Shown here: positions 26,312 through 62,957 of the stretch, piece by piece | Numbering within the stretch: position 1 is the stretch's first letter | Layout: every line of letters starts with the position of its first letter | Source: Bacteroidia bacterium | Lineage (GTDB): Bacteria > Bacteroidota > Bacteroidia > Flavobacteriales > Flavobacteriaceae | DNA: 64,000 nucleotides | NCBI GenBank assembly: GCA_030428705.1 | Contig: JAUIDI010000003.1 | Location: forward strand, 310,001-374,000 | Direction: 5' to 3' | Translations under genes and position numbers: made by a program | The notes under the pieces: model-generated | The model's database searches: none | Seen by the model: only the letters and a program-made list of their open reading frames with translations | Told to the model about the DNA's origin: nothing

Positions 26312-29300
26312 ATGAACTACAATTTCAACGAAATTGAGGCCAAGTGGCAAAAGTATTGGGCCGAACACCAAACCTTTAAGGCGGAGAATAATTCGGATAA
26401 AGAGAAGTTTTACGTGCTCGATATGTTTCCATATCCCTCTGGGGCAGGACTTCACGTAGGCCACCCATTGGGTTATATCGCAAGCGATATTTATGCCCGC
26501 TACAAAAGGCATAAAGGTTTTAACGTCTTACACCCACAAGGCTATGATTCCTTTGGATTGCCCGCGGAGCAATATGCCATTCAAACGGGCCAACATCCGG
26601 CGATTACTACGGAAGAAAATATCAAAACCTATAGAAGGCAGTTAGACCAACTCGGATTCTCCTTTGATTGGAACCGTGAGGTACGTACCTCGGATCCAAA
26701 ATATTACAAATGGACACAATGGATCTTTATTCAACTGTTCAATTCGTGGTACAACAAAGATTTGGACAAGGCCGAGGACATAGAAACCTTGATTTCAAAA
26801 TTTGCTGCGGAAGGAAATACCAAGGTCAATGCGGCCTGCGATGAAGATGTTTCGCAGTTTTCGGCAGATGACTGGAATTCTTTTTCAAGCAAGGAGCAGC
26901 AAGGAATCTTGCTCAAATACCGATTGACCTATTTGGCCGACACCGAAGTGAATTGGGTTCCGGCCTTGGGTACGGTTTTGGCCAATGACGAAATCGTAAA
27001 TGGAGTTTCCGAGCGTGGCGGCCACCCCGTGGTACGCAAGAAAATGACCCAATGGAGCATGCGCATCACAGCCTATGCCCAACGCTTGCTCGACGGATTG
27101 AACACTATCGATTGGCCACAGCCTTTAAAAGATTCACAGACAAATTGGATCGGTAGGTCGGAGGGAGCAAGTGTTAATTTTAAGGTTCTCCCCCTGGCCC
27201 CCTCCGAGGGAGGGGGAATCACTCCTCGGTATATTACCGCAGATTCGGATTTATATCCTGTTTTATTGGAACGGGCTAAGGAGATGCGTAAAAATCCAAC
27301 TGCCGCTGAAGATAAACTATGGCAGGCCCTAAGAAGAAAAAATCTTGATGTCCGATTTAGGCGACAGCATCCCATTTACAGATTTATTGTCGATTTTGTT
27401 TGCCTCGAGAAAGGATTGATAATCGAAGTTGACGGGAAAATTCATAAATATCAATTGGACAACGATGCCCAGCGCACCCTTGAACTGGAGCAAAAAAAGG
27501 GATATACGGTCATACGATTCGCCAATGACGAGGTACTAAATGATTTGGAAAGAGTGGTTTCGGAAATTGAGGGTGTGTTGAGCTTCCTCCCCTTTGGGGA
27601 GGGTCGGGGAGGGGATTTTGAAATCGAAGTCTTCACCACCCGTCCAGATACCATTTTCGGGGCCTCGTTCATGACACTTGCACCGGAACATGAACTGGTG
27701 CCAAAAATCACGACCCCGGAACAAAAAGCCGAGGTCGAGGCCTATATCGAAGCGACCGCGAAACGTTCCGAGCGGGATCGTATGGCCGATGTAAAAACGG
27801 TTTCTGGTGCGTTTACGGGTGCGTATGCCGAACATCCGTTTACCAAAGAACCCGTTCCCATTTGGATCGGCGACTATGTCTTGGCGGGCTACGGTACCGG
27901 GGCAGTGATGTCCGTGCCCTGTGGGGATCAACGCGACTATGATTTTGCCAAGCATTTCGGTATTCCTATTCCGAATATTTTCGAGGGCATCGATATTTCG
28001 GAGGAAGCTTTTGCTGATAAGGAAAAGACAATTATCGCCAATTCCGATTTTCTAAACGGACTCTCCTATAAAGAAGCCGTAAAAAAAGTGATCGCCGAAT
28101 TGGAAAAAATCGGTCAGGGCAAGGGCAAAGTGAATTACCGATTGCGTGATGCCGTTTTTAGCAGACAGCGGTATTGGGGCGAACCCTTTCCGGTGTATTA
28201 CGATGAAGACGGTATGCCGCAAATGTTGGATGAGAAATTTTTGCCGCTCGAGCTGCCCGAAGTCGATAAATACTTACCGACGGAAACCGGAGACCCTCCA
28301 TTGGGCAATGCCAAAAAATGGCATTGGTTGCAATACGGTGATAATGGAAAGGTGGTATCCAAAGAAGAATTTGAAAATTCCTCCCCTTCGGGAAGGTCGG
28401 GCGGACCTTTGGAGCTGAACACCATGCCTGGCTGGGCAGGCAGTTCGCAATACTTCAACCGCTATATGGATCCCCACAACGACAAGGAAATCTTTTCACA
28501 GGAAGCTATTGACTATTGGCAAGATGTAGATCTGTATATTGGCGGTAGTGAACATGCCACGGGGCATTTACTGTACAGCCGTTTTTGGCAAAAATTTATG
28601 TTCGATATGGGGTTGGTGCCCAAAGTCGAGTTTGCGAAAAAACTGATTAATCAGGGGATGATTACAGGGACAAGCGGCTATGCTTTTTTCACATTTTATT
28701 CATTGATTGATGAAGCTACCAAAAAGGTAGTAGTTGACAGAAGATACGTTTTTATTCCAAAGGATGTTTATGATAATGCTATTTCTTTGAGTTTAACTAG
28801 TGAAGTTGATCAAATTGTTAAGGAGTCTATTTGGGAGGTGATACCAGAAGATTTTCGAGAAGGAATTTTAAAAAAGGAATTAATTTTTATTTCTCCGATT
28901 GCGAAGACCCATGTTGATGTTTCCTTAATAAATGCTTCCGATCAATTGGATATCGATGGCTTTAAAAAATGGCAGCCTGAATATAAGAATGCTGAATTTA
29001 TTCTTGAAAATGGCAAATATATTGTTGGCCGCGAAGTGGAAAAAATGTCCAAATCCAAATACAATGTCGTGAATCCCGATGATATTTGTGAGGAGTACGG
29101 GGCGGACAGCCTTCGCATGTACGAAATGTTTCTGGGTCCATTAGAGCAATCAAAACCCTGGAACACGGCCGGGATCACGGGTGTACACTCCTTTTTGAAA
29201 AAATTATGGAAACTCTATTCCCCCTTTGAAGGGCCTGTCCTGAGCGGAGCCGAAGGGGGTCAGGGGGATGTAAATTCGGAAGCTACATCGGAGAATCTAA

Positions 29301-29749
29301 AAACGTTGCACAAAACCATCAAAAAAGTCGAGGACGACATCGAAAACTTTAGTTTCAACACCTCGGTCTCCACGTTTATGATATGTGTCAACGAACTGAC
29401 CGCACAAAAATGTACGAGCCGTGAAATTTTGGAGCCATTGGCGATTTTGGTGTCACCCTATGCCCCGCATATTGCCGAAGAACTTTGGGAGAAATTAGGT
29501 CATGGAGAGTCGATAGCCTTTGCGCCCTTTCCGAAATTTGAGCAAAAATATTTGGTGGAAAGTACCAAGGAGTACCCGATTTCCTTCAATGGAAAAATGC
29601 GTTTTACGATGGAACTTCCGTTAGACCTAAGCAAAGAAGAAATCGAAACGGCGGTCATGACGAATGAAAAAACGCAACAACAATTAGAGGGCCGAACGCC
29701 CAAAAAAGTAATCGTAGTGCCCGGTAAGATCGTTAATATTGTAGGGTAA
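26312..29749 (+). CDS. leuS: leucyl-tRNA synthetase with in-frame DUF559 nuclease-like and repeat insertions
   Basis: Charges tRNA-Leu. The start is Met 26312 ([16 protein letters not shown]); an ATG at 26261 is less likely. At 1145 residues it is about 200 longer than I expect for the family. Catalytic signatures are intact: HVGH (48-51), editing-site TTRPDTIFG (442-450), [19 protein letters not shown], and KMSKS (911-915). Residues 293-435 (27188-27616) are an extra module with a DUF559 endonuclease-like domain inserted just before the editing motif. Residues 690-698 and a segment near 970-986 are translated palindromic repeats. About residues 786-905 are encoded by AT-rich DNA and contain an expanded loop before [11 protein letters not shown]. 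The frame is never broken, so the enlarged enzyme is presumably made and active. Confidence 0.96.
27188..27217 (-). repeat. GC-rich palindromic repeat, left end of the DUF559 cassette
   Basis: The copy contains the palindrome CCCTCCGAGGGAGGG and on the minus strand ends in CCAGGGGGAG. It is translated as [10 protein letters not shown]. Its orientation is opposite to the right-hand copy. Confidence 0.75.
27586..27614 (+). repeat. GC-rich palindromic repeat, right end of the DUF559 cassette
   Basis: CCTCCCCTTTGGGGAGG followed by GTCGGGGAGGGG. It is translated as LPFGEGRGG. It is nearly the same as the intergenic copy at 62911-62939. Confidence 0.75.
28379..28405 (+). repeat. third palindromic repeat copy inside leuS
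   Basis: TCCTCCCCTTCGGGAAGG followed by TCGGGCGGA, translated as SSPSGRSGG (residues 690-698), just before the conserved [13 protein letters not shown] motif of LeuRS. It is in frame and diverged from the other copies. Confidence 0.65.
29219..29268 (+). repeat. fourth palindromic repeat copy in leuS, split by a nested 24-base insertion
   Basis: TCCCCCTTTGAAGGG is interrupted and resumes as GAAGGGGGTCAGGGGGA. The interrupting 18 bases (CCTGTCCTGAGCGGAGCC, 29234-29251) are flanked by the direct repeat GAAGGG (29228-29233 and 29252-29257). The net gain is 24 bases or 8 codons (PVLSGAEG), keeping the frame. Confidence 0.7.
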
Positions 29750-62910: not shown

Positions 62911-62939
62911 GCTCCCCTCCTTTGGAGGGGTCGGGGGAG
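62911..62939 (+). repeat. GC-rich palindromic repeat of the leuS cassette family
   Basis: CTCCCCTCCTTTGGAGGGG followed by TCGGGGGAGG. The order is C-rich arm, TTTGG, G-rich arm, GTC, G-rich tail. It is very close to the right boundary of the DUF559 cassette in leuS (27586-27614) and the nearest thing to an uninterrupted copy in the window. Confidence 0.75.
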
Positions 62940-62957
62940 GCCGATAAATAAAAAACC

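Follow-up and report, generated by a model that had tools for sequence, protein, structure and literature searches.

The leucyl-tRNA synthetase gene (leuS) in the analyzed stretch of Flavobacteriaceae DNA (64,000 nucleotides, here called the window) carries an in-frame module composed of a DUF559 nuclease domain between two palindromes. With a probability of roughly 60%, we interpret this insert as a mobile nuclease cassette that is embedded in genes without splicing, spreads by homing and now and then moves to another gene, both its activity and its homing being predicted properties. According to the proposed mechanism, such a cassette would consist of a DUF559 (Vsr-like) nuclease of about 110 amino acids, often placed between inverted GC-rich palindromes that are translated as flexible linkers, and would sit in frame within a loop of the host protein. 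The nuclease would cut the module-free allele of the host gene, and repair from a module-bearing copy would put the cassette into the same loop, i.e., homing without splicing. In rare cases, the palindromic ends may allow the cassette to reach another loop or another gene. Survival of the host is presumably due to a module that keeps the reading frame, folds independently and is attached at a loop. An earlier sequence-only reading of this DNA had described one lone capture; what goes beyond it is the scale, as the module belongs to a family spread over a phylum. The features of the window are listed in Table 1.

Table 1. Features of leuS, the inserted module and related palindromes, numbered from the first base of the window.
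Feature	Position	Strand	Basis or remark
leuS, leucyl-tRNA synthetase, 1145 aa, module in frame	26312..29749	+	stop-free ORF
Insert of 143 codons, DUF559 nuclease with a palindrome at each end	27188..27616	+	429 nt; Pfam
Left terminal palindrome CTCCCCCTGGCCCCCTCCGAGGGAGGGGGAA	27188..27218	+	related palindromes elsewhere in genome
DUF559 (PF04480) domain, Vsr-like nuclease fold	27269..27577	+	Pfam, profile, Foldseek
Predicted active site D69 ... E80-x-D82 ... H86 (module numbering)	27392..27445	+	
Right terminal palindrome TTCCTCCCCTTTGGGGAGGGTCGGGGAGGGGAT	27584..27616	+	
Solo palindrome-like stretch in frame (SSPSGRSGG), second LeuS loop	28379..28407	+	by eye; missed by the genome patterns
Third GC-rich palindrome-like stretch, in frame in LeuS	29218..29269	+	by eye; hairpin stability not above that of shuffles
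Solitary intergenic palindrome copy	62911..62940	+	0 mismatches to pattern

The DUF559 module in LeuS

The sequence-only reading had noted 143 extra in-frame codons in the CP1 hairpin of LeuS and, within them, the D...E-x-D pattern of DUF559. This observation was confirmed: the reading frame is open through all 429 nt of the insert, and the pattern corresponds to D69, E80 and D82, followed by H86. Pfam placed DUF559 (PF04480) at LeuS residues 320-422 with an E-value of 1.1e-33, and the module scored 115.8 bits against this profile at a curated cut-off of 20.6. The catalytic, editing and anticodon domains of LeuRS were all detected in the same protein, the editing domain (PF13603) beginning at residue 435. 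Among the matches listed, the window leuS was the only one of LeuS strength for its genome (1/4 matches of this genome listed), and the cell therefore appears to rely on the module-bearing copy.

The model predicted for the module alone (143 aa) had a pLDDT of 85 and consisted of a nuclease core with low-confidence ends. Foldseek returned two PDB fold matches at E < 0.001, NGO0050 (2.4e-6) and the catalytic domain of the homing endonuclease I-Bth0305I (5.6e-4), and a profile built from 67 sequences picked the same two PDB chains (4e-32 and 1e-6, respectively). Checked for a nuclease fold, the segment is thus predicted to have one. In the AlphaFold model of the whole LeuS (mean pLDDT 77.5, pTM 0.64, so that placement is only indicative), for which LeuRS structures were the best PDB matches, the nuclease is predicted to lie between two strands of the CP1 hairpin (LeuS residues 282-292 and 437-442). 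The palindromic ends, which are translated as proline/glycine-rich linkers, had low confidence in this model (residues 296-307 and 427-434).

An alignment of the window module with 66 of the 83 modules from named loci, taken best-scoring first (alignment A3), contained 12 invariant columns. As this set was selected, the putative active-site residues were counted over all 176 distinct modules. D69, E80, D82 and H86 were all kept in 171 of them (118 of the 120 internal ones), and one or two of the four were missing in the modules L011, L034, L045, L080 and L232. Between the window genome (G000) and its sister species G002, the DUF559 core showed 17 synonymous and 2 nonsynonymous changes (dN/dS 0.027); the dN/dS values of the two LeuS flanks were similar (0.037 and 0.031) and that of the whole module including its ends was 0.090. 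The DUF559 domain of the window is under purifying selection. Judged from its fold and the retained residues, the module is a predicted nuclease and may cut DNA.

It is conceivable that the module is removed by RNA or protein splicing or skipped by ribosome bypass, which would yield a normal mature LeuS. The two ends can indeed pair, leaving the module as a loop of the RNA (z -2.52, with 1 of 100 shuffles as stable). A search for an intron RNA at the LeuS site, however, gave only one sub-threshold match to another family (Rfam, positions 26900-27900), and an intein was rejected as well, no Hint splicing domain being found in LeuS or in the module (Pfam, E up to 0.01). In the embedded copies, too, no stop interrupted the frame within the module, but an open frame had been a criterion for picking them. 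We consider such a removal very improbable. Since no splicing element was recognized, the module is probably retained in the mature LeuS.

Two further observations concern the downstream part of leuS. At positions 28669-29069, G000 and G002 were only about 57-67% identical, with many gaps, compared to 86-99% in the preceding 100-base blocks, which marks a part of leuS that is hypervariable or has recombined. In the genus mate G001 (L004, also L117), the leuS frame is broken past the module and close to the second loop, into a frame of 719 aa and another one; this copy represents either a sequence error or a damaged gene.

Module-free alleles, host proteins and palindromic ends

A comparison of LeuS from relatives revealed module-free alleles in other genera. 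Within the window's genus, LeuS contains the module in each of the three genomes. The module was absent from 37 of the 57 LeuS genes fetched from the family, which were a chosen rather than random set, so that 37/57 is not a population frequency; for L094 and L101 no LeuS frame was obtained. The module-free genes included those of G077 and G034, from genera whose N-terminal part of LeuS is 87% identical to that of the window. The distance between the motifs NWIG and TTRPDT is 160 aa in the window and 149-222 aa in the 20 module-bearing genes of the family (one of these decayed), compared to 21 aa in 23 of the 37 module-free genes and 19 to 60 aa in the other 14. The net gain over the common module-free form is 139 codons, with the original loop tip being replaced.

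An intact module in LeuS was present in at least 18 of 299 genomes of the family, and a decayed one in a single genome of the family, G004 (L080). In the latter, the palindromes are gone, D82 is changed to E and H86 is missing, and the frame is still open, which would be expected of a nuclease that LeuS can do without; this one case suggests that it can. These data bear on the possibility that the module is a domesticated domain, retained for a useful function in nucleic-acid binding, regulation or defense. Such a role would agree with the purifying selection, with the position of the loop at the editing domain and close to the tRNA, with the nucleic-acid-handling function of several hosts, and with the presence of the module in LeuS of all three genomes of the window's genus. 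We nevertheless regard domestication as rather improbable in view of the low number of genomes of the family in which an intact copy was seen in LeuS (18 of 299, a lower bound), the loss of active-site residues in L080, and a range of hosts that includes metabolic enzymes and has nothing obvious in common.

Some module-free genes of other genera contain other short peptides in the same CP1 hairpin loop, for example VIASEAKQSH in L100 with close variants in L066, L074 and L098. These and the peptides starting with VIPTERHTERSRS look like putative repeat-derived sequences (VIASEAKQS... or VIPTERHTERSRS... in L066, L070, L074, L078, L098 and L100). A LeuS with the module at the same loop was also found outside Bacteroidota, in a contig labelled Candidatus Paceibacterota that is possibly mis-binned (L137). 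Bearers of the module that are available in culture include Cellulophaga baltica DSM 24729 (L134) and Leeuwenhoekiella marinoflava DSM 3653 (L120).

Related modules were detected at E ≤ 1e-15 in 161 of 395 genomes of the phylum, many of them in short frames of their own. The modules from named genomes represent the best 80 of at least 557 confirmed candidate stretches, and most of these 80 come from Bacteroidota. With identical cores counted once, 176 distinct modules were obtained, of which 120 were internal (preceded by at least 80 aa of open frame and followed by at least 60 aa), 25 N-terminal (some of these being due to contig ends), 24 stand-alone and 7 C-terminal; the loci had been picked for good matches and long frames, and ratios of internal to stand-alone modules are not population frequencies. 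In-frame modules occurred in 16 host families with a profile match, one of them weak. Examples of internal sites checked with Pfam or NCBIfam are two loops of LeuS, three of MetH, and sites in MetG, RecJ, a RecB-like helicase, an AddB-like protein (weak), AcsA, a class III CoA-transferase, IcmF, an M23 peptidase and an epimerase/polysaccharide protein, as well as in restriction-modification genes (Eco57I-type, ISP-type, MmeI-like, HsdM and N6/N4 methylase genes). RecG, IleS and HsdR are presumably additional hosts according to conserved motifs, and most single loci within a class were likewise assigned to their presumed host by such motifs. In several hosts a Pfam domain was split in two around the module, as expected for an insertion.

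The second LeuS loop, which in the window contains only the solo palindrome-like stretch, holds a full module in some other Bacteroidota. MetH proteins with two modules each were found in L043 (G217) and in L178 and L180 (Flavobacterium MAGs), and site B of MetH holds a module in G002 but not in its congeners G000 and G001. Terminal fusions of DUF559 were found with HemD, HisD, HisF, IspF, Gmk and others. Among them, DUF559 is fused in frame to the start of a hemD-like gene in nine genomes (L018, L028, L030, L036, L045-L047, L049, L053), and these fusions form a separate clade; we take these nine to be HemD from a motif, and Pfam backs the C-terminal case L243. In phage and plasmid collections, relatives of the module were present in 3 and 37 records, respectively, all with less than 60% identity, and these collections therefore hold no close donor.

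The ends of the window module were described in the sequence-only reading as inverted copies of one GC-rich palindrome. They are GC-rich and hairpin-like, and similar to each other after one of them is reverse-complemented, which upholds the inverted arrangement; the copies are imperfect, however, and at the settings used the repeat finder did not report them as a single inverted pair. In the relative L042 the ends read TTCCCCCTAGCCCCCAAAGGGGGAA and TTCCCCCTTCGGGGGTTAGGGGGA. Inverted flanking repeats were scored in 173 of the 176 modules, three with short flanks being dropped. In 113 of the 173 modules the flanks exceeded all 40 shuffles, compared to 20 of 940 random positions in the same loci, and in the remaining 60 they were no better than shuffles. 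By class, inverted flanks were present in 77/120 internal, 18/24 N-terminal, 14/22 stand-alone and 4/7 C-terminal modules.

The palindrome was also sought elsewhere in the window genome. Similar sequences occurred at eight places besides the module when looser patterns were used (≤3 mismatches), a stricter pattern gave one match, and reversed control patterns gave none. The RNA hairpins of four single palindromes did not exceed shuffles in stability (z 0.11 to 0.61). No stand-alone DUF559 gene bearing the same ends, which had been suggested as something to look for, was found in this genome; the only other DUF559 match covered part of the profile (positions 66-108; 27 bits) and lay in a gene of 164 aa, which we take to be Vsr-like. 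Among the palindromes of the window genome, one solitary copy is in frame in another open frame of 333 aa (L247, G000:C12:64558-64576, ...VVKGLPPSFGGGQGEAYF...). Elsewhere, two palindromes face each other at a distance of a few tens of bases without a nuclease (L255/L257, G000:C15:190391-190454), possibly an emptied unit.

Solitary palindromes of this kind, both intergenic and in frame, raise the question of whether the nuclease is passive cargo, i.e., a DUF559 gene carried between two REP/MITE-like palindromes that are moved by unlinked machinery or by recombination. The short repeat-like peptides without a nuclease in the same LeuS loop and the inverted ends around stand-alone DUF559 genes (14/22) would fit this explanation as well. 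On the other hand, mere cargo would need neither the active-site residues, which are kept in 171/176 modules, nor purifying selection on the core of the window module. We therefore consider passive transport unlikely and favor a cassette whose nuclease takes part in its own spread.

Module trees and lateral spread

If modules were inherited together with LeuS, the module and enzyme trees should agree. The LeuS module data rejected the LeuS topology with a p-AU of 0.00076 for 11 type-2 rows and of 2.4e-7 for 17 rows, and did not reject it for the six type-1 rows, the type of the window (p-AU 0.094). Conversely, the LeuS data rejected the module topology in all three sets (6, 11 and 17 rows). 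A single LeuS clade of the type-1 bearers was rejected with a p-AU of 0.007 and one of the type-2 bearers with 4.7e-6; the groups for these tests came from the module tree but were chosen with the LeuS tree already in view. In the module tree, neither a single clade of all LeuS modules (p-AU 0.294) nor one of the window's genus (g1; 0.167) was rejected. From these alignments, we read the conflict as a sign that modules probably spread laterally into a single loop of a single gene, with a possible contribution from recombination within leuS or from a poorly fitting model.

In a phylum-wide module tree, which is a quick tree from a short alignment with many weak forks, the 37 host labels change at least 54 times, compared to 116.7 times in shuffles, and the modules therefore combine site fidelity with repeated host switches. 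In this tree stand-alone and embedded modules are intermixed, above all those in restriction-modification hosts. In the tree at the level of the family, a clade (100/96) of 34 internal modules plus a HisD fusion is separate from the included stand-alone and hemD-fused DUF559 proteins. The two modules of the G217 MetH are sisters (100/91) with 91% identity, and those of the L178 MetH fall into different clades.

These trees also bear on an ordinary domain fusion that was inherited vertically from an old ancestor and lost many times, without any mobility. The grouping of modules by insertion site, the correlation of module and host identities (r 0.51), the module data, which do not reject one shared origin of the LeuS modules with later losses, and the type-1 set, which alone does not reject the host topology, can all be reconciled with such a history. 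The mutual rejection of topologies in the 11- and 17-row sets, the sister modules at two sites of one MetH, and the Pfam domains that are split around the module instead of being joined end to end argue against it, and we judge it distinctly improbable. The interpretation as a mobile cassette, already put forward from the sequence alone, is supported by the inverted ends, by the conflict between module and enzyme trees and by the presence of the same kind of module in many hosts.

Loop residues differ between full and module-free alleles of LeuS and MetH, the boundaries are not clean, and a clean target-site duplication was not readable in these two genes because the full and module-free loop sequences are too different. 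Co-conversion of the LeuS flanks near the insertion gave no signal in what is a weak test, with third-position identities of about 0.43-0.59 and L196-L205 left out. Homing-type behavior, as far as fold and distribution allow such a statement, is supported only indirectly, by the I-Bth0305I fold match and the site-faithful spread.

Comparison with known mobile elements

The persistence of mobile introns and inteins in conserved genes is generally ascribed to their splicing out. A nuclease cassette that resides in many unrelated enzymes and has no recognizable splicing element would represent another route to persistence, namely a foldable in-frame domain with linker-forming ends. In the open-access literature (PMC only), we found nothing joining DUF559 and leucyl-tRNA synthetase and no description of such a cassette. 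Within these limits the cassette is undescribed and there is a real chance of a new class. That it represents a new class of selfish element, i.e., a non-splicing, protein-embedded homing cassette that occupies the same loop across genera and whose ends occasionally reach new genes, is a tentative proposal to which we give slightly less than even odds. If it is correct, many tRNA synthetases, methionine synthases and repair helicases of Bacteroidota are physically fused to a live DNA nuclease. The modules would then serve as a natural record of protein loops that accept a 140-residue domain. They might also explain oversized LeuS and MetH proteins in Bacteroidota and point to a candidate role for some members of DUF559, which Pfam names a family of "unknown function". 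In addition, they would connect REP-like palindromes with a non-RAYT nuclease in a way that can be tested.

The best structural match to the module, NGO0050 (3hrl) of Neisseria, is a stand-alone DUF559 protein with 41% identity; it forms a separate chain of 104 residues, whereas the window module is embedded in another protein. With the EDxHD homing endonuclease I-Bth0305I, the module shares the fold of the catalytic domain and the sequence profile, and its site-faithful lateral spread fits homing. I-Bth0305I, however, is the protein of a mobile intron and has a long multi-domain DNA-binding structure. The module has neither an intron nor a long DNA-binding extension and is embedded in a host protein, which may supply the extra DNA-binding regions. 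In-frame insertions of homing nucleases in fungal mitochondrial rps3 provide a precedent for such an arrangement.

In REP/RAYT units (REPtrons), a nuclease gene is located between inverted short palindromes, and solitary palindromes are found elsewhere in the genome. The DUF559 modules resemble them in both respects, although the ends of the window module are imperfect. RAYT is an HUH tyrosine transposase, whereas the nuclease of the module is a Vsr-like DUF559 protein that is embedded in host ORFs.

Homing endonucleases are described as being carried by introns, inteins or free-standing frames (PMC3943268). Like inteins with homing endonucleases, the modules occur in frame in conserved genes, show a patchy distribution and carry a nuclease (partly PMC3943268). 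Unlike inteins, they have no Hint domain, occupy loops in LeuS and MetH that vary between relatives, and apparently stay in the protein. The Rickettsia palindromic elements (RPE) are in-frame palindromic inserts in many unrelated protein genes; they have a size of about 150 bp and are described as encoding a conserved peptide and not a nuclease domain (PMC10969869). The module resembles RPE as a palindromic element that is in frame in several unrelated genes. It is set apart from RPE, as these are described, by its core, which is a conserved nuclease of about 110 aa, and by its occurrence in another phylum.
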